A stretch of DNA of 64,000 bases. Origin: Halobacillus shinanisalinarum (GTDB lineage Bacteria; Bacillota; Bacilli; Bacillales; Halobacillaceae). Made by a program: the position numbers and the translations under genes. Positions 5,254-62,433 of the stretch are shown here, piece after piece. How positions within the stretch are numbered: position 1 is the first letter of the stretch; each line of letters starts with the position of its first letter. Below the pieces are notes generated by a model. It was not told the DNA's origin, made no database searches, and saw only the letters and a list, made by a program, of their open reading frames with translations. The stretch spans positions 2,814,001 through 2,878,000 of the forward strand of contig NZ_CP095074.1 in the NCBI RefSeq assembly GCF_022919835.1, in the 5' to 3' direction.

Positions 5254-5814
5254 ATGAGAAAGCTGGTCTGTTTTGGTGATAACATAACCGCACAAAATGC
5301 AGGACATATGACACCCAGATTAACTTCCCTACTTCAGCAGCATTTATCGGAATGGTTTGTACTCAATGAAGGTGTATCAGGTAACACCACACGTGATGCA
5401 CTTGCAAGAATAGAAAGTGATGTATTGGGCCAGGAGCCTGATCTTGTAACAGTATTGTTCGGTACAAATGATGTGGAAGAACACAACAAGGTTACGATTG
5501 AAGAGTACGAGGAGAACATACGTAAAATTGTGTCATTTATTGGTCCCGATAAGACCATTCTTCTTACCCCGCCGCCGATTGATGAAGTACTACAAACGGT
5601 GAGAAAGAATGAAGTGATAGGAAGATATGCTCGCGCAGTGGAGCTTGTCGCCTGTCAGAAGGGAGCCTATGTCATTCCTTTGTTTGATTTGATGATTCAT
5701 GAATCAAATTACCGAGAGATGTTAAAAAAGGATGACGGTCTTCACTTCAGCGAACTAGGCTACACCTTTTTATCCAAACAAATTTTAAAAACCATACAAG
5801 AAAAAATCCACTAA
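5254..5814 (+). CDS. SGNH/GDSL-family hydrolase with catalytic Ser replaced by Asn
   Basis: 186-residue protein with the SGNH block order of bacterial lipase/esterase-like enzymes. Block I reads CFGDNIT at residues 6-12, where the family has GDS; block II is EGVSGNTTRDAL; block III is LFGTNDVEE; block V is DDGLHFSELGY with the Asp-x-x-His pair. Thus the Gly, Asn and His parts are present but the nucleophile is Asn10 (codon AAC at 5281-5283). A single G-to-A change from AGC would explain this. The ATG at 5254 is chosen for its AAAGGTGG site. The protein is probably catalytically inactive or reduced; a binding role or a recent loss are both possible. Confidence 0.75.
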   Translation: MRKLVCFGDNITAQNAGHMTPRLTSLLQQHLSEWFVLNEGVSGNTTRDALARIESDVLGQEPDLVTVLFGTNDVEEHNKVTIEEYEENIRKIVSFIGPDKTILLTPPPIDEVLQTVRKNEVIGRYARAVELVACQKGAYVIPLFDLMIHESNYREMLKKDDGLHFSELGYTFLSKQILKTIQEKIH

Positions 5815-5816
5815 TT

Positions 5817-5857
5817 TCCACCTCAGGTCATCCATTATTTGGATGACCTGAGGTGGA
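5817..5857. repeat. CCACCTCAGGTCATCCA palindrome, copy A
   Basis: Two 18-base arms, TCCACCTCAGGTCATCCA and its complement, flank a 5-base loop. This copy overlaps the last codons and stop of the minus-strand XRE-TPR gene. It lies between convergent genes, so it could also work as a transcription terminator. Confidence 0.85.
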
Positions 5858-7108
5858 TTTTATTTGGGCGCGGTAACAGTCTGCGGCGCGTTTGTATCTG
5901 CCTATGTGGTAGAAGTGGTGGCCGAGCTTTTGATAAAGTGTTTCTAAAGGTTCTTTATCTGCATCATGTTCAAAATAGTCAATACATTCTGCTAGGCTTT
6001 GTTCATAGCTTTTCATGTCCCCAATTTGTTTGTAGTAATCAAGGAAGGCTTCGAGAAGGTAGTAATGATCAGAAGTTTGACTAATCCCTCTGCTTGCTGT
6101 GTTATAGATGCTTAAAGCCTGTTTCAAAAGGCCTCTCTCTACATAGGCTTTACATAATGAGTGGAAGGTTATTTGTTTATTTGCTGAGACTCCTTGCAAG
6201 TTCTTAAGTTTAAGAGCACGTTCAAGGTAAACGCAAGCCTGTTCACTTTGACCTGAACTTCGCATCACTACACCTTTATTATGAAGTATTTGCCCAAGTA
6301 AATAACGATTTTCATCTTTTTCAGCCTGAGCCTGGGCTTCATTTAAATAGTCCATGGCAGGCTCATACTTTTTCTGATTTAAATAAACGATACCGAGCAA
6401 ATTAAGGATCATACTTACATCTTCTGTTTGATTTAGGCTTTCATAATATGTGCGGACTTCTTTGCAGTAATCGATTGCCATTTGATAATCTTCAAGAGCA
6501 TTAGACAACACTGCTCGATTATAGGTTAATGCTGCTTTCACTGGGAGAGGACTTTTCAATAAAGAGAAATTCTTGTAGTGATGTAGGCTATTCTGGAAAT
6601 CAGACCGTTGGTAGTATCTAATACCTTGACAATAATGATAGGCATTTTGGATACGAACAGGTAAAGTGTCAAGCTTATCATCATGAAGGTAAGCATCAAT
6701 ATACTCATTGTACAACTCTGTTGCATCCCTCGGCATCTTGGACTTACAGTAATAGGCACACTTTAATAAAAGAAAGTAAATCTCCTGATGCACATTTGAT
6801 AAATATTCATAGTAATTCTCATCAAGAGCTTCGATGAGGGGAGCAGCTTTCTCTAAGTCTGTAATAATAAATAGCTGTAGCTGTGCCAAGAGATGATTCA
6901 CTTCCTCATCCTCATCCTGATAATGGTGAAAAAAATCCTTTGAAAGGTCGAACGCAGCCGCGATAAGGTGCAGTGTGTGTACACCAGGGCGGCGATAGCC
7001 ATTTTCGATTTTACTAAGATGGGCGGTTGAAAGCTTCCCGCCCGCAACTTGCTGTAATGTCATATTATTTCGTTTACGGTAAATGGAAATTCTTCTTCCG
7101 ATGTTCAT
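5828..7108 (-). CDS. XRE-type HTH regulator with C-terminal TPR repeats
   Basis: 426 residues. Residues 1-60 form an XRE/Cro helix-turn-helix (IGRRISIYRKRNNMTLQQVA … LSTAHLSKIENGYRRPG). The rest is helical TPR repeats, for example MILNLLGIVYLNQKKYEPAMDYLNEA and the repeat after it. This architecture is that of RRNPP-like regulators (PlcR/Rgg/AimR group), many of which bind a short peptide in the TPR groove. ATG 7108 is preferred to GTG 7114 because AGAGGA is then 9 nt away. The final residues (KSTSGHPNNG) and the stop codon come from the palindromic repeat at 5817-5857, so the native C-terminus was probably altered. No neighbouring secreted peptide gene was found. Confidence 0.75.
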   Translation of the reverse strand: MNIGRRISIYRKRNNMTLQQVAGGKLSTAHLSKIENGYRRPGVHTLHLIAAAFDLSKDFFHHYQDEDEEVNHLLAQLQLFIITDLEKAAPLIEALDENYYEYLSNVHQEIYFLLLKCAYYCKSKMPRDATELYNEYIDAYLHDDKLDTLPVRIQNAYHYCQGIRYYQRSDFQNSLHHYKNFSLLKSPLPVKAALTYNRAVLSNALEDYQMAIDYCKEVRTYYESLNQTEDVSMILNLLGIVYLNQKKYEPAMDYLNEAQAQAEKDENRYLLGQILHNKGVVMRSSGQSEQACVYLERALKLKNLQGVSANKQITFHSLCKAYVERGLLKQALSIYNTASRGISQTSDHYYLLEAFLDYYKQIGDMKSYEQSLAECIDYFEHDADKEPLETLYQKLGHHFYHIGRYKRAADCYRAQIKSTSGHPNNG

Positions 7109-7359
7109 GTGCACACGTCCTCTTAGAAAAAATTACCTAACTCTATCATACATGTTTCGACAGATTGTGAATAGGTCAAAAGGACGATGAATTTGGAACA
7201 ATTGTAAAAAGTAAAGGAAATTCCATTTTTAAGTGTAATATTTTCAGTCATACTTGCCTTTTTACTCAATTATAATAGTCCAATAACAAGATTTGAAAAT
7301 CATTAAAATGTAGTACGATTAGAGTAAATAGAAAGAACGATTGAGTATAGGGATAAACA

Positions 7360-7923
7360 ATGGAGTGGGCAAAGGTGAGAAACACAAACAAAGAGCTAGC
7401 TCTTGAAGAATTAGTCAAACATGAATATCCATCTTTAGTAAGGACAGCACAGTCGTATGTTAAAGATGCTATGACAGCAGAAGATATGGTTCAAGAAGCA
7501 TTGCTAAAAGCTTATGAAAAATTCGATTCCTTCCAAACAGGGAATAGCTTGCGGGCATGGTTATTTCGGATCATGATCAATAAGTGCAAAGATCACCTTC
7601 GCAGTTACACGCAACGAAAAGTAACCCCGTGGGAGGACCAGTGGATCCATGCTGCACAAGTGGATCCGCATAACCCTTTGGATATCATGATCCAGCAAGA
7701 GGACTATGATGATATTCATCAAGCCATAGACTTGTTGAAGCCAGATTATCATGAAGCGTTACATCTTTATTATTTCAATGATTTATCTGTAAAACAAATG
7801 TCTATGGTGCTACACATGAATGAAAATACGCTTAAGACGAGAATGAAGCGGGCGCGCGATCATTTAGGAGAAGAGCTTGTGCAACATAAGGAAAATGTGC
7901 ATTTTTCTTCAATCGCTACCTGA
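7360..7923 (+). CDS. ECF-type RNA polymerase sigma factor
   Basis: 187 residues with sigma region 2 (VRTAQSYVKDAMTAEDMVQEALLKAYEKFDSF … LRAWLFRIMINKCKD) and region 4 (HEALHLYYFNDLSVKQMSMVLHMNENTLKTRMKRARDHL). No anti-sigma gene is adjacent: a convergent Sco gene follows after a hairpin. The acidic C-terminal tail after the second domain is short. It is flanked upstream by the divergent XRE-TPR gene. The target promoters are not evident in this window. The start at 7360 has only a weak AGGGAT site, so the exact N-terminus is uncertain. Confidence 0.85.
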   Translation: MEWAKVRNTNKELALEELVKHEYPSLVRTAQSYVKDAMTAEDMVQEALLKAYEKFDSFQTGNSLRAWLFRIMINKCKDHLRSYTQRKVTPWEDQWIHAAQVDPHNPLDIMIQQEDYDDIHQAIDLLKPDYHEALHLYYFNDLSVKQMSMVLHMNENTLKTRMKRARDHLGEELVQHKENVHFSSIAT

Positions 7924-8008
7924 TTTATTGGGCTGAATCTAAAGTAAAAGTAATTCATGAAGCAGGTTTGGTAAGAGTACTTCCTAATTTGAAAGCTAGA
8001 TTCAATAA

Positions 8009-8040
8009 GAAAAGCGCTCCAGCAAATGGAGCGCTTTTCT
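8009..8040. terminator. Bidirectional terminator between sigma factor and Sco genes
   Basis: GAAAAGCGCTCC pairs with GGAGCGCTTTTC around a 7-base loop, with A/T tracts on both sides, between two convergent genes. Confidence 0.8.
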
Positions 8041-8627
8041 CATTGATTGGCTACAATCTTGGCATCTTCCACAATTTGTTCGAAAGGAACGTTTGTGGCA
8101 CCTTTATAGTATTTTACAATTTTTCCTTCTTGATTAACTAGGAAAAACTGAGAACCATGGGACACTTGTTCAGCTCCCTCTGGCTTTTGAACAATGGTTT
8201 TGAAACTTTCCTTTCCAAAATTTTCAATCTTATCTTGGGAATAACCTGTTACAAAAGTCCAATTGCTGAAATCAACTCCCTGGGCTGAGCCGAACTCCTT
8301 CAACTTCCCAGGTGTGTCCACTTTTGGATCAACGCTGAACGAAACAATCTCAGCCTCAATACCTTCCTTCTCCAGCATATCTTGAACTTTTGCCATATTG
8401 CGAGTCATTGGTGGGCAGACAGTGTTACAGGACGTAAAAATAAAATCGGCAAGCCAAACCTTACCTTCCATGTCCTGAATGGAAAATTCCTCATTGGCTT
8501 GAGTCGTGCCTTGAAGGCTGCCAATTTCCCAATTTAATGGATCTTCAAGCTCTTTTGTACCGCAACTGGCTAATATAAGAGCAGTGGTGATAATGATCGT
8601 AAGTATAAGAGAACGTTTGTATGTCAT
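8040..8627 (-). CDS. Sco1/SenC/PrrC family copper-binding lipoprotein
   Basis: 195 residues. A lipoprotein signal peptide ends in LILASCG, so Cys is lipidated and the protein sits on the outer face of the membrane. The thioredoxin-like domain holds the copper/redox motif CNTVC and the conserved His in VSHGSQFF, plus the SFSVDPKVDTP strand of Sco proteins. Sco proteins deliver copper to, or reduce, the CuA site of cytochrome c oxidase. The ATG at 8627 is chosen with AAAGG 8 nt upstream. Equivalent to B. subtilis Sco (YpmQ) by family. It stands alone, away from oxidase genes. Confidence 0.88.
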   Translation of the reverse strand: MTYKRSLILTIIITTALILASCGTKELEDPLNWEIGSLQGTTQANEEFSIQDMEGKVWLADFIFTSCNTVCPPMTRNMAKVQDMLEKEGIEAEIVSFSVDPKVDTPGKLKEFGSAQGVDFSNWTFVTGYSQDKIENFGKESFKTIVQKPEGAEQVSHGSQFFLVNQEGKIVKYYKGATNVPFEQIVEDAKIVANQ

Positions 8628-8822
8628 AAGGTACACCTTTCCTTCCTATGTTCTATCCATCAGTTTACGACTCAGTGAAAGCTAGTGTCAATTTTATTAC
8701 AGGCAATTTCGATGCTGTTTTCCCTATCTTCATGAAAATTTCACAAAGCGGGTTCTCTCCTGCATACTTTGTAACTGTTTCGGAGAAAATAACGTTCTAA
8801 GAAATGTAAGCGGAGGATGCGT

Positions 8823-19366: not shown

Positions 19367-20200
19367 GTGTCAAGTCAATCAGAAACAGCCGTCAGACCTT
19401 CAGTTGAAAGTCGCGGAAAAACAAACTTTAATCCGTTCACGTCTAATTTATTTGTAGGAAGTCACCTCCCTATCGTTCTCATTATCATTTGGGAGGTTGC
19501 TTCAAGGAATGGCTGGGTGGCTCCCTATTTGCTTCCTGCTCCCTCTGTGGTTTTTGAGGAAGTAGTAGGCATGGCACAGGATGGAGAACTATGGGGACAC
19601 ATATCAATTACGTTATACCGCGTATTTGCGGGGTTTTTACTAGGAATGGTCGCAGCTACCATTTTAGGGGCTGCAACTGGTTATATTAGAATCGTTGAAA
19701 AGGTTCTCGATCCAATGTTGCAGGCACTGAGGGCGATCCCATCATTAGCCTGGGTGCCGCTGTTTGTTTTATGGATCGGTATCGGGGAAGCCTCTAAAAT
19801 CACGCTGGTAGCTGTAGGGGTATTCTTTCCGATTTATTTAAATTTGACCTCTGGTATTCAAGGGGTGGATCGTAAGTTAATCGAAGTGGGTCGTATGTAT
19901 CATTTTACAACTCTGCAGCAAATCCGCAAAATCATCTTTCCTGCTGCACTGCCTTCCTTTTTAGTAGGGGTACGAAGCGGCCTTAGTCTCGGCTGGATGT
20001 TTGTCGTTGCAGCCGAATTGCTGGGTGCAAGTCAAGGTCTTGGCTATTTAATGGTGTTTGGTCAAAACACCTCCTCCCCGGAGCTTGTCATTGGTAGTAT
20101 CGTGTTGTTTGCGATCTTCGGGAAGGTATCCGACGAGATTTTGAAGCAAATTCAAATGAGAACATTGAGATGGCAAGACAGTATTGAAAATGCGTCATAG
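19367..20200 (+). CDS. ABC transporter permease (SsuC/TauC-like)
   Basis: 277 residues starting with GTG after GGGAGGAG. Six or so membrane helices and the permease coupling loop IEVGRMYHFTTLQQIRKIIFPAALPSFLVGVRSG (the EAA-type motif with conserved Gly) match the BPD_transp_1 permeases of sulfonate/nitrate/taurine systems. RAIPSLAWVPLFVLWIGIGEASK is also typical of SsuC. It lies 24 nt after the binding-protein gene. It forms the membrane channel with the ATPase that follows. Confidence 0.88.
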   Translation: MSSQSETAVRPSVESRGKTNFNPFTSNLFVGSHLPIVLIIIWEVASRNGWVAPYLLPAPSVVFEEVVGMAQDGELWGHISITLYRVFAGFLLGMVAATILGAATGYIRIVEKVLDPMLQALRAIPSLAWVPLFVLWIGIGEASKITLVAVGVFFPIYLNLTSGIQGVDRKLIEVGRMYHFTTLQQIRKIIFPAALPSFLVGVRSGLSLGWMFVVAAELLGASQGLGYLMVFGQNTSSPELVIGSIVLFAIFGKVSDEILKQIQMRTLRWQDSIENAS

Positions 20201-20215
20201 ATTGGAGGAGAAATC

Positions 20216-20929
20216 ATGCTGGCAGTTGATCAAGTTTCACGTGTTTTCCAGAACGGAAAAGCTGGCTTCAAAAACGTCAACATACGGCTAACCGAAGGCG
20301 AGGTTGTCGGTGTTCTAGGAACGAGCGGCTGTGGAAAAAGTACACTTTTACGCGTGCTTTCTGGGCTAGATTTAAATTATAAAGGGCATATTGAAACAAA
20401 TGTGAGTGACCCTGAGCGTGCTTTTGGAATGATGTTTCAAGAGCCGAGGCTGATGCCATGGCTTTCAGTTTGGGAGAATATCACCTTTGGTGTGGCGAAA
20501 AAACAGAGTAGGGAGCAAGCTTTGGACTTAATCCAAACGGTCGGTCTTGAGGGGTTCGAGAACCATTATCCTAAGGATTTATCAGGCGGAATGGCCCAAC
20601 GTGTAGCTATTGCCCGTTCTTTATTGAATCGTCCGGAAATTTTATTGCTGGATGAGCCGTTGAGTGCACTTGATGCGTTTACGAAGATGCAGCTCCAAGA
20701 TTTGCTTCTATCAATCTTTGAAAAGCATCATACGACGACACTGCTAGTTACGCATGATATCGATGAAGCACTCTATCTATGTGACCGCATTGTCATTATG
20801 AGAGGACAGCCGGGCGGGATTCAGTCCGAAATTTCGATCGACACACCTAAGCCGCGTAGACGAGGTGACACCTATTTAGCTAATCTCAAAGAGGATATTC
20901 TACAGGAGCTAGATTTCACTAGAGTTTAA
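20216..20929 (+). CDS. ABC transporter ATP-binding protein (SsuB/TauB-like)
   Basis: 237 residues with Walker A GTSGCGKST, a Q-loop in MMFQEPRLMPW, the signature LSGGMAQR, Walker B ILLLDEPLSALD and the switch His in LVTHDIDEAL. The RLMPW stretch is characteristic of the sulfonate/nitrate branch. It starts 15 nt after the permease with GGAGG, and powers that importer from the cytosol. Confidence 0.9.
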   Translation: MLAVDQVSRVFQNGKAGFKNVNIRLTEGEVVGVLGTSGCGKSTLLRVLSGLDLNYKGHIETNVSDPERAFGMMFQEPRLMPWLSVWENITFGVAKKQSREQALDLIQTVGLEGFENHYPKDLSGGMAQRVAIARSLLNRPEILLLDEPLSALDAFTKMQLQDLLLSIFEKHHTTTLLVTHDIDEALYLCDRIVIMRGQPGGIQSEISIDTPKPRRRGDTYLANLKEDILQELDFTRV

Positions 20930-20943
20930 GGAGGATCGTAAAC

Positions 20944-22635
20944 ATGGCAGATGTAATTCTTCCACCAAAACGTGGGAGTCATAATATTTCTGAAGAATGG
21001 ATGGAAGGCGAACCCTTCTCATGGGAACGCGTCCACCCAATATTTAGCTGGTATCAAACAGGGAAAGTAAATATGACCTATGAAGCTGTAGACCGGCATG
21101 TACTTAATGGAAAGGGTGAGAAGACAGCCCTCCATTATATTTCCGAAACGGAGAATTGGTCGTTAACCTATAGAGAGCTTCAGCAGGAAGTGAATCGCTG
21201 GAGCCATGTGTTGACGGCGTCCGGTGTTAAGAAAGGCGACTTTGTATTTGTTTTCTTACCGAAGCACCCACATTGCTACATTGCGATGCTTGCTGCGATT
21301 AATGTTGGTGCTGTTGTAGGGCCGTTATTTGAAGCCTTTATGGAAGAAGCTGTTCGCGATAGGATTAATGATTGCGAAGGAGAGTTTTTAATAGCTGACT
21401 CCAGCTTTCTATCTCGTGTCCATCGTGAAGAGATTCCGAGTTTGAAGACGGTTTTTACAACGGATAAAGAAGCAGGGGAGGCTGACATTTCGATCACAAA
21501 GGAAGCGGAGAAGGCGGATGATGAGTTCGAAACAGTCTGGGTAGATCTTGAGGATGGCTTGAATATTCATTATACGAGTGGCTCTACAGGAAAACCAAAG
21601 GGAATTATCCATGCCCATCGAAACATGATCCAGCAATATCAAACAGGTCGTTGGGTCCTTGATTTGAAGGACGATGATGTCTACTGGTGCACGGCCCATC
21701 CAGGCTGGGTGACAGGCACAGTGTATGGAGTGTTTGCCCCATTACTAAATGGAGTAACAACAGTTATTCACGGTGGCCGTTTCTCGGCAGAGGCATGGTA
21801 TCAAGTTCTTGAGAAAGCGCAAGTGACCGTATGGTACAGTGCACCGACTGCCTTTCGCATGCTAAAGGCGTCAGGGGATAAGACATTAGAAAAATATGAC
21901 CTTTCCTCATTAAGACACATTCTTAGTGTGGGCGAGCCGTTAAATCCTGAAGTCATTCATTGGGGAGTGGAAGCATTAAACCTAAGGATTCATGATACCT
22001 GGTGGATGACAGAGACAGGTGCTCAATTAGTAGCAAATCTGCCAACGCGTCCCATTAAACCAGGATCCATGGGGCGCCCGATCCCAGGCATAGAAGTCGC
22101 AGTCTTAGATGAGGGGGGAGAAGAACTGCCGCCATTCGAAACGGGTCATCTGGCTATCCGCGCTTCTTGGCCGTCCATTATGAAGGAAGTATGGAAGAAT
22201 GAACAAAAATTTAATTCTTACTTTCCTTATGGAGAAGAGTGGTATATAGCTGGTGACCTCGCTTATTTAGACGAAGAAGGGTACGTGTTTTTCCAAGGTA
22301 GAAGTGACGACATGATTAATTCTGCGGGCGAACGGATTGGTCCGTTTGAAGTCGAAAGCAAACTCCTTGAACATCCTGCCGTGAAGGAAGCTGGAGTAAT
22401 CGGCAAGCCAGATTCAGTCCGTGGCGAAATCGTCAAGGCTTTCATTGCGTTGAACACGGGTTATAAGGAAGGCGAAGAACTTTTGGAGGAAATTCGGTTA
22501 TTTGTACGAGGTCGGCTGGCTGCCCACTCGGCCCCTCGTGAAATCGAGGTCATACAGGAATTGCCGAAAACTCAGATCAGTGGAAAAGTATTGAGAAGAG
22601 AGTTGAAAAAAGGTGAGATTGATCAAGCAGGGTAA
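20944..22635 (+). CDS. AMP-forming acyl-CoA synthetase (acetyl-CoA synthetase-like)
   Basis: 563 residues of the ANL superfamily. Motifs in order: YTSGSTGKPKGIIH (P-loop), WCTAHPGWVTGTVYGV, WWMTETGAQ, YIAGDLAYLDEEGYVFFQGRSDDMI, ERIGPFEVES and the catalytic Lys in KTQISGKVLRREL. It therefore activates a carboxylate with ATP to an acyl-AMP and then an acyl-CoA. The WWMTETG motif is like that of acetyl-CoA synthetases, so acetate or another short acid is likely. It is the last gene of the S-box operon, with GGAGG 15 nt after the ATPase. Its place beside metY suggests a role in supplying acyl-CoA for O-acetylhomoserine or in processing the imported sulfur compound; both are inference. Confidence 0.85.
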   Translation: MADVILPPKRGSHNISEEWMEGEPFSWERVHPIFSWYQTGKVNMTYEAVDRHVLNGKGEKTALHYISETENWSLTYRELQQEVNRWSHVLTASGVKKGDFVFVFLPKHPHCYIAMLAAINVGAVVGPLFEAFMEEAVRDRINDCEGEFLIADSSFLSRVHREEIPSLKTVFTTDKEAGEADISITKEAEKADDEFETVWVDLEDGLNIHYTSGSTGKPKGIIHAHRNMIQQYQTGRWVLDLKDDDVYWCTAHPGWVTGTVYGVFAPLLNGVTTVIHGGRFSAEAWYQVLEKAQVTVWYSAPTAFRMLKASGDKTLEKYDLSSLRHILSVGEPLNPEVIHWGVEALNLRIHDTWWMTETGAQLVANLPTRPIKPGSMGRPIPGIEVAVLDEGGEELPPFETGHLAIRASWPSIMKEVWKNEQKFNSYFPYGEEWYIAGDLAYLDEEGYVFFQGRSDDMINSAGERIGPFEVESKLLEHPAVKEAGVIGKPDSVRGEIVKAFIALNTGYKEGEELLEEIRLFVRGRLAAHSAPREIEVIQELPKTQISGKVLRRELKKGEIDQAG

Positions 22636-22659
22636 GCAGGGCTAATCCCCTGCTTTTTG
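22633..22659 (+). terminator. Terminator of the S-box operon
   Basis: AAGCAGGGG pairs with CCCCTGCTTTTT around a short loop; it overlaps the TAA stop of the synthetase gene. Confidence 0.75.
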
Positions 22660-22669
22660 TTTTGCTATA

Positions 22670-22884
22670 AGAGAATGTTCAAAAAGTCACCAAATGATCA
22701 ACGACGAATTTCTTCGTTGCTCGGTTTTCCGGTTCTCACGTATGAAAGGTATACGCTGTGGTCTTCAAAACGTTGGCCCCTCGAACTTCTTGCGATGCGC
22801 AAGGAACGTGCTTGTGTCGACTTTGTCACAAAGGTGACGATCTTTGTCGAAGTTCTCATTCGTCAACTTTTTGAACACACACCA
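22670..22884. mobile_element. MITE-like repeat, copy 2
   Basis: TGTTCAAAAAGTCACC begins at 22676 and GTCAACTTTTTGAACA ends at 22877, so the ends are inverted repeats. The interior has inverted GACGAATTTCTTCGTTG and GTGTCGACTTTGTC parts. Of the three copies in the window this one looks most complete and lacks the extra block found in copy 1. No protein is coded. It sits just after the terminator of the S-box operon. Confidence 0.65.
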
Positions 22885-23014
22885 TTAATAATATAAATAA
22901 ACTTTTTATTTTCCCTTTTCCCAAGTCATTAAACGTGTATACAGTAGAAAATAAGGTGGAAGAGGGCTTGAACCCTACATGACAGGGCTTCCATAAAAGG
23001 AATTTTTTAAAAAA

Positions 23015-23046
23015 GTGATCCAGAAGGTGATTTTTTTCGATAGCTA
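23015..23046 (+). promoter_or_regulatory. Putative ECF sigma-dependent promoter of the sigma/anti-sigma operon
   Basis: GTGATCC at 23015-23021, 16-base spacer, CGATAGCTA at 23038-23046. The same two boxes with the same spacer stand at 24559-24590 before the surface protein gene. ECF factors commonly drive their own operon, so this is read as an autoregulated promoter. Confidence 0.7.
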
Positions 23047-23122
23047 TATAGCATACTCCCATAGAAGAAAATTATATTGCTGATATGCTATGATAGCTTT
23101 ATCCACCATAAAGGAGTGTGCT

Positions 23123-23686
23123 ATGAGCAATAAAGACTTAGGGCTCTATCACCAGATGATGGATGGCGATAAGAAAGCACTTGAATCAATATACGATAAA
23201 TATGAGAAGCTGCTTTATTCATTTGTCATTAAGTTATCTGGGGATCAGACATTAGCAGAAGAGGTATTGCAAGAGGTATTCATTAAGCTATGGACGAACA
23301 AAGCAACATATGATGAAACGAAGGGGAAGTTCTCTTCGTGGATCGTAACCATCACAAGATACACAGCCATTGATATTATTCGTAAAAATAAAAATCAGAC
23401 GGTTGCTTTGGAAGAGGAAACGGACCTCCCGGAACAAGTTGGGGATTCCACTGAGGATATAGTGGAGTGGAAAGAACAAGGTGATAAGATAAGGAAAGCA
23501 GTAAAAGAATTATCTAATGAACAAAAACAAATGGTGGATCTATTTTATTTTAAAGGATTAAGTCAACAGGAAATTGCTAATCAGTGTGATCTTCCACTTG
23601 GTACTGTCAAAGGCAGGATTAGACTGGCATTAAAGCATCTAAAAACACATTTAACAAACGGGAAAGGGGGCGTTAATGATGCGTAA
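23123..23686 (+). CDS. ECF-type RNA polymerase sigma factor
   Basis: 187 residues. Region 2 is LYSFVIKLSGDQTLAEEVLQEVFIKLW with FSSWIVTITRYTAIDIIR, region 4 is VDLFYFKGLSQQEIANQCDLPLGTVKGRIRLALKHL. The ATG at 23123 with AAAGGAG upstream is used, not the longer frame. The anti-sigma gene overlaps its end by 11 bases, so the two are translationally coupled. It is expected to recognise the GTGATCC-N16-CGATAGCTA boxes found before this operon and before the surface protein gene downstream. Confidence 0.9.
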   Translation: MSNKDLGLYHQMMDGDKKALESIYDKYEKLLYSFVIKLSGDQTLAEEVLQEVFIKLWTNKATYDETKGKFSSWIVTITRYTAIDIIRKNKNQTVALEEETDLPEQVGDSTEDIVEWKEQGDKIRKAVKELSNEQKQMVDLFYFKGLSQQEIANQCDLPLGTVKGRIRLALKHLKTHLTNGKGGVNDA

Positions 23687-24488
23687 CGAATGCGAGAAAG
23701 TGATTGATTTTTTCAATAATCAGCTGTCAGATGTTGAAGAGAGAGAATTCGAGAAGCATCTGGAAACGTGTGACGATTGCCAAGAAGAGTTGGCTGAGCT
23801 TCGTGCACTTACTGAAGATTTAGCGTTCGCTTCAGAGCCCGTCAACCCTCCAGAAGGTATGAAAGATCGTGTGTTAGATGCTGTTTTTGCGGGAGAATTG
23901 AATGACACAGACGATAAAAGGTCAGAGCAAGCGGAGGGTCAGGAAGATTCATCTGTAGTAGCCTATGAACCACGAAAAGATCGCTCTGAACAAGGGTTAC
24001 AACCTCGAAAAACTAAAAAACCGTGGATTTTGAGAGGATTAGCCGCGGCTTTGATACTGTCATTAGCTGGGAATTTATATGCTGTGATGAATGAAGACGA
24101 AACGGCTACTCAAGGTCCGGTGGAAGGGCCGGGAGATCCTACTCAAAGTACGGACCAAGTTACAACTAAAGTACAACTGCAAGGTACAACGAATGCTCAG
24201 GCAACTGCCTCTATGATTCAACAAGAGCATGGCGGCCTTCTTACATTGCAGGCTGAGTCCCTCGAGCAATTAGAAGGAGAAGAAGTGTATCAAGTGTGGT
24301 TGATTGAAGGAGAAACACCACATCGTGCTGGAACATTTGTAGCAAATGAAAATGGTCAAGGTGCAGTAGCTTATGCAATGGATCAACTTCCTGAAGGTAC
24401 GGACTGGAATGCTGTAGCGATCTCAAGGGAACCTGATGCTACAAGCCAGGCACCACAAGGTGAAGTGATCTTACAAGCAGAATTATAA
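23676..24488 (+). CDS. Zinc-finger anti-sigma factor, RskA type
   Basis: 270 residues. The N-terminal cytosolic part has the ZAS motif HLETCDDC at about residues 30-37. A linker of about 70 residues leads to one membrane helix (ILRGLAAALILSLAGNLYAV, about residues 113-132) and an extracellular RskA-like domain (VQLQGTTNAQATASMIQQ … VYQVWLIEGETPHRAGTFV … WNAVAISREP). Such proteins hold the sigma factor at the membrane and release it on proteolysis triggered outside the cell. It overlaps the sigma gene and ends before a hairpin that separates it from the surface protein gene. Confidence 0.88.
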   Translation: MMRNECEKVIDFFNNQLSDVEEREFEKHLETCDDCQEELAELRALTEDLAFASEPVNPPEGMKDRVLDAVFAGELNDTDDKRSEQAEGQEDSSVVAYEPRKDRSEQGLQPRKTKKPWILRGLAAALILSLAGNLYAVMNEDETATQGPVEGPGDPTQSTDQVTTKVQLQGTTNAQATASMIQQEHGGLLTLQAESLEQLEGEEVYQVWLIEGETPHRAGTFVANENGQGAVAYAMDQLPEGTDWNAVAISREPDATSQAPQGEVILQAEL

Positions 24489-24504
24489 TCGATTTTTAGA
24501 CTAT

Positions 24505-24540
24505 GCAGACAGTTTTTCACAACTGTCTGCAATTTTTTTG
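24505..24540 (+). terminator. Terminator after the anti-sigma gene
   Basis: GCAGACAG pairs with CTGTCTGC around a 10-base loop and is followed by a T run, so the surface gene depends on its own promoter. Confidence 0.8.
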
Positions 24541-24558
24541 ATATTTTTTAGGGGAAAA

Positions 24559-24590
24559 GTGATCCAAATGTAATTTGGGTTCGATAGCTA
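24559..24590 (+). promoter_or_regulatory. Putative ECF sigma-dependent promoter of the surface protein gene
   Basis: GTGATCC at 24559-24565, 16-base spacer, CGATAGCTA at 24582-24590, both identical to the boxes at 23015-23046, and AAAA precedes both. It is 37 bases before the start codon at 24627. Confidence 0.7.
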
Positions 24591-24626
24591 GGTGAATAAA
24601 CAAAACAAGAAGGGGAGATTTTTAAG

Positions 24627-25964
24627 ATGGATATGAAAAAAGCACTTTTTGCCGTACCTTTAAGTGTATCACTGTTACTACCTACGTCACTTGATGTTGT
24701 AAATGCTGAAGAGCACAATATGCCAACGGTTGAAACGGAAGCTGTAGAACTTCGAGCAAGCTTAGATAAATTGTTTAGTGAGCATGCGTACCTAGCTGTT
24801 GAAACAATGAGAAAAGGAGCAGAAGGAGCTGCCGACTTTGAAGCTTCAGCAAATGCTTTAGCAGCCAACACGGAAGATCTATCTGCAGCGATCGCTTCTG
24901 TTTATGGTGATGAAGCGGGACAGAAATTCCAAGATATGTGGAGCGAGCACATTGGCTATTTCGTTGATTATGTGAAAGCAACGGGCAGTGGAGATGAAGA
25001 AGCTAAGCAGATGGCTCTAGATGAGCTTGATGATTACCGGAAAGACTTCTCTCAATTCATTTCAACAGCAACAGATGGTGCAGTGAAAGCTGAAGGAATG
25101 GCTGAGGGTCTGCAAATGCATGTTAATCAGCTAATCGGAGCATTTGATGCGTATGTTGCAGGTAATTATGATGAGGCTTATGCTAAAGAGCGTCAAGCTA
25201 TTGATCACATGTACGGTGTAAGTAAAGGAATGTCTAAGGCCATTGTAAATCAATTCCCAGATAAATTTAACAATACGAAAGCTGTTACGCCAGCTGCCGA
25301 CCTTCGTTCCAACTTAAACCATTTGTTAAGTGAACATGTTGGTCTTGCTACGATGGCGATGCAGAATGGTCTAGATGGATCTAAAGATTTTAAAGCATCT
25401 GCACAGTCCTTAGCGAATAATACAGATGACCTAACTAAAGCTATTACTTCTATTTATGGAGAAGAAGCTGGAAATAAATTTAATCAAATTTGGTCTGATC
25501 ACATTGATGATTTTGTCTCTTACGTAGAAGCAACAGCTAATGAAGACAAAGAGAAGCAAAAAGAAGCGATGAAGGAATTGGAAGATTATAGAGATAATTT
25601 TGCAATGTTCCTTGAAGAGGCTACAGGTGGTGAGGTAAGCGCTGAAAAACTAGCTCCAAGTCTACAAAAGCATGCTGATTATCTGTTCGATACTTTTGAT
25701 CAGTATGCCGCAGAAGATTATGAAAAAACTTATACGACTTTAAGAGATTCTTATGCTCACATGTTTGGCGCTTCTAAAGCTCTTTCGGGAGGAATAGTTA
25801 GCCAATTCCCAGACAAATTTGCTATGGAGAATATGCCATCTGACATGCCGAAAACAGGTATGGGTGGTACAGCCGCAAACAGTGACCTATGGATCTTTGC
25901 TTCCATCCTTGCACTAGTTGGTGCAGCTGGAGTGTTCATTCGTAAACAATCTAAACAACAATAA
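24627..25964 (+). CDS. Secreted surface protein: two His-containing repeats and a sortase-like sorting signal
   Basis: 445 residues. A signal peptide (about 1-27) is followed by two helical repeats, about residues 42-213 and 226-397, with a period of exactly 184. Each repeat has four His in the same positions (H53/H237, H108/H292, H165/H349, H194/H378), in the settings SEH, WSEH or WSDH, Q-x-HV or KHA, and HMYG or HMFG, and each repeat ends QFPDKF. The C-terminus is MPKTG (407-411), a hydrophobic segment and a basic tail (RKQSKQQ), as in LPXTG-type wall-anchored proteins. The His pattern suggests metal or haem binding in each repeat, which is inference. I do not know a named family. It has its own ECF-type promoter matching the sigma operon next to it. 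Confidence 0.75.
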   Translation: MDMKKALFAVPLSVSLLLPTSLDVVNAEEHNMPTVETEAVELRASLDKLFSEHAYLAVETMRKGAEGAADFEASANALAANTEDLSAAIASVYGDEAGQKFQDMWSEHIGYFVDYVKATGSGDEEAKQMALDELDDYRKDFSQFISTATDGAVKAEGMAEGLQMHVNQLIGAFDAYVAGNYDEAYAKERQAIDHMYGVSKGMSKAIVNQFPDKFNNTKAVTPAADLRSNLNHLLSEHVGLATMAMQNGLDGSKDFKASAQSLANNTDDLTKAITSIYGEEAGNKFNQIWSDHIDDFVSYVEATANEDKEKQKEAMKELEDYRDNFAMFLEEATGGEVSAEKLAPSLQKHADYLFDTFDQYAAEDYEKTYTTLRDSYAHMFGASKALSGGIVSQFPDKFAMENMPSDMPKTGMGGTAANSDLWIFASILALVGAAGVFIRKQSKQQ

Positions 25965-26021: not shown

Positions 26022-26036
26022 CTTTATCTAATTTCT

Positions 26037-26077
26037 TCCACCTCAGGTCATCCAATTTATGGATGACCTGAGGTGGA
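26037..26077. repeat. CCACCTCAGGTCATCCA palindrome, copy B
   Basis: 18-base arms with a 5-base loop (ATTTA), intergenic, just after the terminator of the surface protein gene. No T tract follows. Confidence 0.85.
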
Positions 26078-26162
26078 AGGTTTATACAAATTATAAATGT
26101 GTTGTTCACCTGAAACTTGGGTATAAATGTAGTAGAGGACATTTGTAGAGAGGTGAGTTAGA

Positions 26163-28014: not shown

Positions 28015-28126
28015 GCAAACTCGCTGCCGTTAACTGTTAATTACAACGAGCTTGTCGCTTTAATGAGCTTTTACCCCTTTCTTTTTCCTGTGAAAGGGGA
28101 CCGCTAATTCCAATTACCCAATCAAT

Positions 28127-28167
28127 TCCACCTCAGGTCATCCAGTTTTTGGATGACCTGAGGTGGA
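28127..28167. repeat. CCACCTCAGGTCATCCA palindrome, copy C
   Basis: 18-base arms, 5-base loop GTTTT, placed 34 bases before the start codon of the uracil-DNA glycosylase gene and after the exchanger gene. Confidence 0.85.
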
Positions 28168-28201
28168 GGAAAATGGAAAGGCTAGTAGGGAGGTGGAATG
28201 C

Positions 28202-28840: not shown

Positions 28841-28849
28841 AGAAAAACT

Positions 28850-28890
28850 TCCACCTCAGGTCATCCAAATTTTGGATGACCTGAGGTGGA
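28850..28890. repeat. CCACCTCAGGTCATCCA palindrome, copy D
   Basis: 18-base arms and loop AATTT; pairing can continue into flanking AACT/AGTT (28846-28894). It lies between the convergent glycosylase and anti-sigma genes. Confidence 0.85.
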
Positions 28891-28901
28891 AGTTAATGGG
28901 T

Positions 28902-31245: not shown

Positions 31246-31286
31246 CCCACCTCAGGTCATCCAAATTATGGATGACCTGAGGTGGG
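31246..31286. repeat. CCACCTCAGGTCATCCA palindrome, copy E
   Basis: 18-base arms with C/G in place of T/A at the outer base, loop AATTA, flanked by complementary AA/TT. Between convergent SDR and ribonucleotide reductase genes. Confidence 0.85.
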
Positions 31287-62084: not shown

Positions 62085-62280
62085 AGTTGGAAAATGCCTT
62101 TTATCATCATTTGCTGTAGAAACGAGGGTCCTTTGAGCTGCTAACAGTGACGATCGTTAACTTGTCATTATGTTATGGGTCAATAACCCGTCACATAAAA
62201 AATTCAGTACACGTAAAATGCTGTATTCTTTCTTAAGCTTATTTAGCAAGTCATGCTACAATAAGCCTGACTTTTATATT

Positions 62281-62433
62281 AGAGGATGTTCACAAAGTCA
62301 CCAAATGATAAAAGGGAATTTCTTCGTTACTCGGTTTTTCCGGTCCTCACGTAGGAGAGGCATACGCTGTGGCCCTCAAAACTTTCGCGCCTCGGACTTC
62401 TTGTTTCTCATTCGTCACCTTGAACACACACTA
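62281..62433. mobile_element. MITE-like repeat, copy 3 (internally deleted)
   Basis: Left end TGTTCACAAAGTCACC (62287) and right end GTCACCTTGAACACACACT. Compared with copy 2 it lacks about 65 bases between CGGACTTCTTG and TCTCATTCGTC. Its right terminus also lacks some of the T run (CACCTTGAACA in place of CAACTTTTTGAACA). Confidence 0.6.

Follow-up and report, generated by a model that had tools for sequence, protein, structure and literature searches.

The 64,000-nucleotide window analysed here comes from Halobacillus shinanisalinarum (contig NZ_CP095074.1, positions 2,814,001 to 2,878,000 of the forward strand). Between positions 23,015 and 25,964 it carries the genes for an extracytoplasmic function (ECF) sigma factor, a membrane anti-sigma factor and a predicted wall-anchored surface protein composed of two similar domains (Table 1). 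We consider it quite probable that the first two form an ECF/RskA switch controlling a regulon that comprises the surface protein, a sortase and, in some species, arrays of micropeptides. The regulatory part of this explanation is strong and well supported by the sequence comparisons described below.

Sigma factor, anti-sigma factor and surface protein at the locus

The sigma protein matched the Pfam domains Sigma70_r2 (64.4 bits) and Sigma70_r4_2 (46.7 bits) above their cut-offs, which upholds the ECF identity proposed in the sequence-only reading; its start is likelier at 23123, where a Shine-Dalgarno sequence precedes it, than at the open reading frame (ORF) start at 23090. In keeping with an ECF factor, the gene has a linked anti-sigma gene, with which it overlaps, and a promoter of its own type, the function of which is predicted. 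The anti-sigma protein belongs to both RskA_C (62.3 bits, cut-off 29.4) and zf-HC2 (27.3 bits, cut-off 22.2), and a single hydrophobic segment between the two domains was recognised by eye. This arrangement resembles SigK/RskA of Mycobacterium, where a two-domain ECF factor adjoins a single-pass anti-sigma factor with RskA_C, and the SigK structure 4nqw is the second-best solved relative of the window sigma. Membership of the SigK subfamily (NF007228) was rejected at 124.7 bits against a curated cut-off of 226. The systems also differ in that the predicted regulon of the window sigma consists of wall proteins, sortase and micropeptides, and in the zf-HC2 motif of its anti-sigma factor; according to PMC7406223, mycobacterial RskA does not depend on a zinc motif.

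The surface protein contains no cysteine. Its two repeats (87 of 183 residues identical) follow the 184-residue period described in the sequence-only reading, with eight histidines at 53/108/165/194 and 237/292/349/378, exactly 184 apart; two further histidines occur at 30 and 232. The sortase-like MPKTG tail was likewise found: the motif occupies residues 407-411, and a hydrophobic stretch and then RKQSKQQ come after it. Together with a signal-peptide-like N-terminus, these are, by eye, the features of a sortase-anchored protein, and M407, P408 and T410 are invariant in 62 aligned sequences.

No Pfam or NCBIfam family matched the surface protein above its cut-off; NCBIfam GVDTG_CTERM (NF058571) reached 24.2 bits, under the curated cut-off of 29. 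The earlier statement that no named family with this pattern is known agrees with the result for these two collections; the protein belongs to a large unnamed family of relatives that carries an unsupported public label. Among the best 120 of 447 relatives, most named rows read "copper amine oxidase", a label that is unsupported because no such domain occurs among the Pfam and NCBIfam matches. The closest homologs among the matches listed belong to Halobacillus. Elsewhere (L169, 6001-7752, similar to P0119), a version of the protein was observed in which S-layer homology domains, precomputed for P0119, replace the sorting signal; the L169 gene has an exact ECF promoter.

Table 1. Features of the sigma factor and surface protein locus, in window coordinates
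Feature	Position	Strand	Remarks
ECF promoter 1, before sigma operon	23016..23046	+	TGATCC 23016-23021, N16, CGATAGCTA 23038-23046
ECF sigma factor, 187 aa	23123..23686	+	Sigma70_r2, Sigma70_r4_2; ATG behind AAAGGAG
Membrane anti-sigma factor	23676..24488	+	zf-HC2 N-terminal, RskA_C C-terminal, hydrophobic segment between
Terminator-like hairpin and T run	24504..24531	+	consensus match only
ECF promoter 2, before surface gene	24560..24590	+	TGATCC 24560-24565, CGATAGCTA 24582-24590
Two-domain secreted wall-anchored surface protein (predicted), 445 aa	24627..25964	+
Domain 1, six-helix bundle (predicted)	24726..25274	+	H53, N81, H108, Y137, H165, H194
Domain 2, same helix pattern	25278..25826	+	H237, H292, H349, H378
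Sorting signal: MPKTG, hydrophobic stretch, basic tail	25845..25961	+	by eye

A shared promoter motif and a proposed dispersed regulon

Two exact copies of GTGATCC-N16-CGATAGCTA, beginning at 23015 and 24559, lie on the + strand, and neither strand of the window has a third. The bases in front are AAAAAA for the first copy and GGAAAA for the second, so that the twin boxes, the 16-nucleotide spacer and the preceding AAAA were all as first reported. The second copy is separated from the anti-sigma gene by the hairpin, which is terminator-like by consensus match only. Across the whole genome (4.887 Mb, one contig), the full motif occurs exactly four times, compared with none for the reversed control and a chance expectation of about 0.002 under equal base frequencies. 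Omitting the first G added a fifth exact site. The five TGATCC sites lie before the sigma operon, the window surface gene, two surface paralogs (45% and 35% identical; L001 and L007) and an array of six micropeptide ORFs, and a sixth site, with one mismatch, precedes a sortase gene (L010). Overall, six of the eight sites at no more than one mismatch in this genome make biological sense. The module is not self-contained, contrary to the earlier claim; both motif copies of the proposed pair are real, but a pair is too small, since the paralogs, the sortase and the micropeptide array share the promoter.

Among 11 genomes of the genus, including that of the window (labelled G000), nine contained sites at no more than one mismatch, giving 33 sites against 3 in reversed controls. 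Excluding G000, 25 sites were identified in sister genomes: 5 before sigma genes, 13 before surface genes, 2 before sortase genes and 1 before a micropeptide array. These account for 21 of the 25. At one sister site (L061) the sortase frame is open for only 200 residues, and at another (L055) a sortase-type leader lies behind the promoter. In G006, an ECF-type promoter (site L056; L187, 4500-4935) was observed before a gene for a secreted-looking acidic protein of 124 residues, which had no Pfam or NCBIfam match.

Comparison of 44 family genomes shows that the sigma factor and the surface protein occur together. A sigma homolog (E <= 1e-30) was present in 35 genomes, and a two-domain surface homolog (E < 1e-50) in all 35 of these and in none of the nine sigma-negative ones, which had weaker domain copies at most (best E 8.7e-24). 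The surface threshold was set after the values were known, although inside the gap (weakest positive 1.3e-54), and the Fisher probability of 1.4e-9 ignores relatedness. In the two Halobacillus genomes without the sigma gene (G008 and G009), only divergent short domain homologs were observed, in frames of 216-233 aa plus a 69-aa piece. The exact form TGATCC-N16-CGWTAGCT was found 83 times, against once for the reversed control; 82 of these sites are in sigma-positive genomes (31 of 35 with at least one) and a single one is in the nine sigma-negative genomes. The boxes turn up repeatedly in front of the same genes and hardly occur in genomes that lack the sigma gene, which supports, at the level of sequence, their behaviour as the promoter of the window ECF factor.

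The same boxes could be read by a different sigma factor, leaving the neighbouring one a bystander. Such an arrangement would account for the single genus of four genomes that has the sigma gene and no exact site, yet it leaves unexplained the exact co-occurrence in the 44 genomes, the near absence of sites without the sigma gene and the matched substitutions in the -10 boxes of the sigma and surface promoters. The third -10 base agreed between the two promoters at 28 of 29 loci (both with no more than 2 mismatches of 13 fixed positions; relatedness uncorrected). We regard the bystander arrangement as very improbable.

The wider neighbourhood was described from the best 80 of 375 confirmed relatives, taken as named loci. 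Within the flanks examined, a sigma and anti-sigma pair lies upstream on the same strand at 58 loci, a sortase gene is present at 57 (directly downstream at 45), and both occur at 43. Clustering of ORFs of at least 90 aa gave the surface gene (80 loci, 27 genera), anti-sigma (59, 21), sigma (58, 21) and sortase (55, 22) as the four genes that clearly recur, with ABC (ATP-binding cassette) ATPases, named by eye, as the next cluster (25 loci, 12 genera). Allowing up to 3 mismatches of 15 fixed positions and a spacer of 15-18, the promoter was found upstream of the surface gene at 65 of 80 loci, compared with 0 of 80 shuffled controls, and upstream of 28 of the 58 sigma genes. Beyond this set, the domain is sporadic in the phylum, with a match in 12 of 398 genomes. 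Of eight stretches taken from phylum genomes, three have sigma and anti-sigma genes beside the surface gene (divergent in L229 and L230, same strand in L231). Relatives also occur on 11 plasmid records, five of which were examined. Three Planococcus copies have no sigma gene within the stretch, and two of them have a class F sortase behind. A Nocardioides copy lies near a weakly matching sigma-like gene. On a plasmid of Methylocystis rosea (Pseudomonadota; L223, 4209-7459), the domain gene was observed to precede an ECF sigma gene, near an encapsulin shell gene fragment.

Several of these counts weigh against a uniform regulon. In the window genome, two of the eight sites lie inside unrelated reading frames, and 2 of the 25 sister sites (L046 and L063) have no assigned gene. 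The four sigma-positive family genomes lacking an exact site, all of one genus, encode sigmas that are 50-52% identical; other genomes with sigmas of similar identity have CGTTAG sites. At the four Salimicrobium loci examined, CGTATGCTT stands in this place. In the wider set, 22 of 80 surface loci lack the sigma pair in the examined flank and 23 lack a sortase. Furthermore, 30 of 58 sigma genes exceed three mismatches, the sigma-gene promoter being often unclear outside Halobacillus, and for this reason autoregulation may not be general across the relatives. Among the eight phylum stretches, L228 and L232 have a sigma-like match only, and L226, L227 and L233 have neither gene.

The regulon sortase (L010) contains the Pfam Sortase domain (101.8 bits). 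Its best-scoring class is class F (NF033748), at 151.1 bits just under the curated cut-off of 166, and in one Planococcus strain two plasmids carry an annotated class F sortase gene immediately after the surface gene. Compared with class F and LPXTG systems, the sorting motif here is MPKTG, the class F cut-off is missed and the sortase has a C-terminal tail. In contrast to the class F neighbours, the sortase gene of this genome is unlinked to the surface gene. Its leader (L010, 1501-1706; C1:617893) begins with 63 bp matching the promoter and leader of a paralog (84%, E 2e-13), and the next 137 bp resemble a region inside the paralog gene (73%, E 2e-19, from a small comparison). The leaders at L055 and L058 show the same pattern, and that at L061 mainly the promoter part. 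We read the leader as a surface gene that has decayed but retained its ECF promoter. G006 has such a surface gene in intact form, immediately upstream of the sortase and likewise behind this promoter. Anchoring of the surface protein by the co-regulated sortase is likely. At two array loci (L274, ~5707-8413; L275, ~6324-8755), a secreted-looking homolog of the sortase C-terminal tail was observed with its own ECF promoter; it gave a weak fn3 match (23.1 bits, cut-off 25) and adjoins genes that we take, by eye, to be CopC- and CopD-like.

A conserved polar layer predicted in the surface domain

Structure prediction with AlphaFold 2 gave a mean confidence (pLDDT) of 81 and a pTM of 0.80 for the whole protein, and for domain 1 a six-helix model with pLDDT 93.2 and pTM 0.87. 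Across the 62 aligned sequences, none of the four domain-1 histidines varies, nor do three of those in domain 2; the eighth, H378, is kept in at least 90%. Conservation also holds at greater distance. In 91 domain rows below 50% identity, drawn from the best 120 of 243 matches and scored where aligned, H53 (84/84), N81 (84/84), H108 (85/85) and H165 (86/86) are fully invariant, and Y137 is kept in 84/86.

An idealised up-down bundle was drawn from the predicted helices. In it, H53, N81, H108, Y137, H165 and H194, one per helix, lie at most 1.5 A from the helix midpoints (standard deviation, sd, 1.3 A), compared with a median of 10 A for random core-facing residues, of which a fraction of 0.0001 matched the six-residue layer. 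With the helices anchored end to end instead, the sd was 2.1 A and the fraction 0.0006. N81 and Y137 were picked after their conservation was known; the four histidines alone gave a fraction of 0.002. Five of the six residues point to the hydrophobic face of their helix (36-56 degrees, with Trp and Tyr scored as mildly hydrophobic); H194, at 103 degrees, is not clearly turned toward it. On the question raised earlier, whether the four histidines of one repeat meet, they share one level of the idealised bundle.

This mid-height polar layer favours a buried ligand site, short of proof, and a metal ion or metal cofactor in the histidine core is, on balance, our preferred reading of the model. Copper in particular is rather unlikely; the hint comes from CopC/CopD neighbours at 3 of 80 surface loci and at two array loci. 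The layer could instead be a structural hydrogen-bond network in a passive, ligand-free component of the wall or matrix, which we judge somewhat unlikely. Such a network would suit the finding that paralogs keep their domain length despite losing one or two histidines, and that H194 varies to Gln. The full invariance of H53, N81, H108 and H165 is, on the other hand, typical of a functional site, and chance would hardly place a conserved polar residue halfway along each of the six helices at a single idealised height. The ligand reading has its own difficulties: H194 is kept in only 64 of 87 distant rows, with Gln in the other 23; Halobacillus paralog types lack H194 and that of L007 also H108, at unchanged domain length; and the fold matches of the domain are weak. 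Comparison with ferritin-like, hemerythrin and other known helical-bundle metalloproteins gave no clear kinship in fold and ligand set. Since these histidines are lost, the paralogs may have a ligand different from that of the window protein.

Micropeptide arrays and the adjacent exporter

The six tandem 30-codon ORFs of this genome (L185, 7718-8612; C1 ~2123718-2124612; promoter site L002) belong to a family of acidic ORFs of 29-30 residues, present in 4-11 copies at seven array loci (L185, L186 and L272-L276). The consensus of 26 distinct sequences is MxDxTQILSDILNGSxNDSGNxDxDxSxLL, with D3, T5, Q6, L8, D10, N13 and N17 invariant. All 26 lack Lys, Arg and His and carry a net charge of -4 to -6, and the N-terminal half is amphipathic. 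Four members gave no match in Pfam or NCBIfam. Setting aside one match at E 0.87, the micropeptide family is represented in 2 of the 44 genomes of the bacterial family; among order genomes the figure is 6 of 299, from five genera. A profile search found it in 8 of 397 genomes, two of which have one diverged copy each, one copy with an internal stop.

The G000 and G004 arrays are preceded by exact TGATCC-N16-CGATAGCT. The five arrays outside Halobacillus were located through their peptides, independently of the promoter, and all five have the ECF boxes in front: three exact, L272 with one mismatch, and L273 with one mismatch and a spacer of 17. All seven arrays therefore have the promoter (0-1 mismatch in 14 fixed positions). 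The five non-Halobacillus array genomes all encode the two-domain surface protein, and in four of them the sigma and anti-sigma genes lie beside the surface gene (L310, L311, L314 and L315). The strict promoter precedes the surface gene in L310, L314 and L273; in L273 the surface gene, the sortase gene, the array and the exporter genes follow one another. At L312, and at L313, the second copy of G638, no sigma or anti-sigma gene lies beside the surface gene in the stretch examined.

Genes for a two-subunit ABC exporter follow the array on the same strand at all seven loci. One subunit matched 3qf4_A at 489.7 bits, its best match being 8wcw_A at 543.6 bits. Heterodimeric ABC exporters such as TM287/288 are the nearest known counterparts; the likeness consists in the 3qf4_A match and the difference in the position of the regulon exporter behind a micropeptide array. 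Because the exporter is constant behind the arrays, export of the micropeptides by it is likely, judging from gene order. Two points count against this picture of the array loci: the first exporter gene of L274 is split into two frames, and a search with the strict motif gave no site ahead of the surface gene in L311, L312, L313 and L315.

The ORFs could alternatively act as leaders or attenuators that adjust the ABC exporter downstream, without being products themselves. At all seven loci they follow the ECF promoter and precede the exporter genes, which agrees with this, as do hairpins with T runs seen by eye behind the array in G000 and G603. An attenuator would not call for 4-11 copies with a strong Shine-Dalgarno sequence on nearly all of them, nor for amino-acid conservation across five genera. 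In ten copies from two Halobacillus, pooled synonymous divergence (pS) was 0.56 and nonsynonymous divergence (pN) 0.10, indicating purifying selection. The ribosome-binding sites, the conservation and the pS/pN values together argue for selection on the peptides, and we consider the attenuator explanation distinctly unlikely.

A further alternative gives the micropeptides an antimicrobial or signalling role after secretion, with the surface proteins as receptor, immunity or anchoring partners. Their known counterparts would be multi-peptide leaderless bacteriocins with ABC exporters, which are typically cationic and membrane-active. The arrays resemble these in having several short tandem ORFs without a visible leader (by eye) next to an ABC exporter, and the amphipathic N-half fits as well. 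The micropeptides are acidic, with no basic residue, and differ further in their ECF promoter and their tie to a sortase and surface-protein regulon; inspection by eye of the ORFs of 110 aa or more listed for five loci showed no immunity-like gene in common. An antimicrobial or signalling role seems somewhat improbable on this evidence.

Additional features were observed in and around the window. A palindromic repeat of ~45 bp lies at 5816-5857, 26030-26095, 28126-28172, 28844-28892 and 31247-31285, and also in L189 near a paralog gene. A dispersed repeat of ~130-250 bp lies at 1975-2142, 22650-22900 (upstream of the sigma promoter) and 62277-62403, and in L185 near the micropeptide array. The upstream neighbours (19367-22635) are ABC transporter permease and ATPase genes, assigned by eye, followed by a gene for an AMP-binding enzyme.

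Proposed mechanism and meaning

In the mechanism that we propose, the RskA-type membrane anti-sigma factor would hold the ECF sigma factor until an envelope signal frees it. The freed sigma would transcribe its own operon, amplifying itself, and drive a small dispersed regulon through TGATCC-N16-CG(A/T)TAGCT promoters. The core of this regulon would be the secreted two-domain protein, fixed to the wall by the co-regulated class-F-like sortase. In each six-helix up-down bundle, the central invariant His/Asn/Tyr layer would most likely bind a metal, either as an ion or as part of a cofactor. In this and some other species, the same sigma would also drive the tandem leaderless acidic micropeptides, which the neighbouring two-subunit ABC exporter probably carries out of the cell. 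More tentatively, and with less than an even chance in our view, the whole may be a new Gram-positive envelope system in which a sortase-anchored metal (perhaps copper) or haem protein and exporter-secreted acidic micropeptides cooperate outside the cell; for example, the peptides could carry metal, or build a matrix, bound by the wall-bound His-core domains.

No published description of the sigma, surface protein, sortase and micropeptide package was found in the literature searched. The switch (ECF and RskA) and the sortase are of known kinds, and the same package recurs in related bacteria. Their usual partner is a widespread domain with an invariant histidine core, for which no assigned function was found. 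The promoter variants CGATAG, CGTTAG and CGTATG offer a natural series for studying sigma-promoter recognition. The exact promoter allows the regulon to be recognised in the sequence of 32 of the 44 family genomes, which makes both its function and its signal directly testable in non-pathogenic Bacillaceae.

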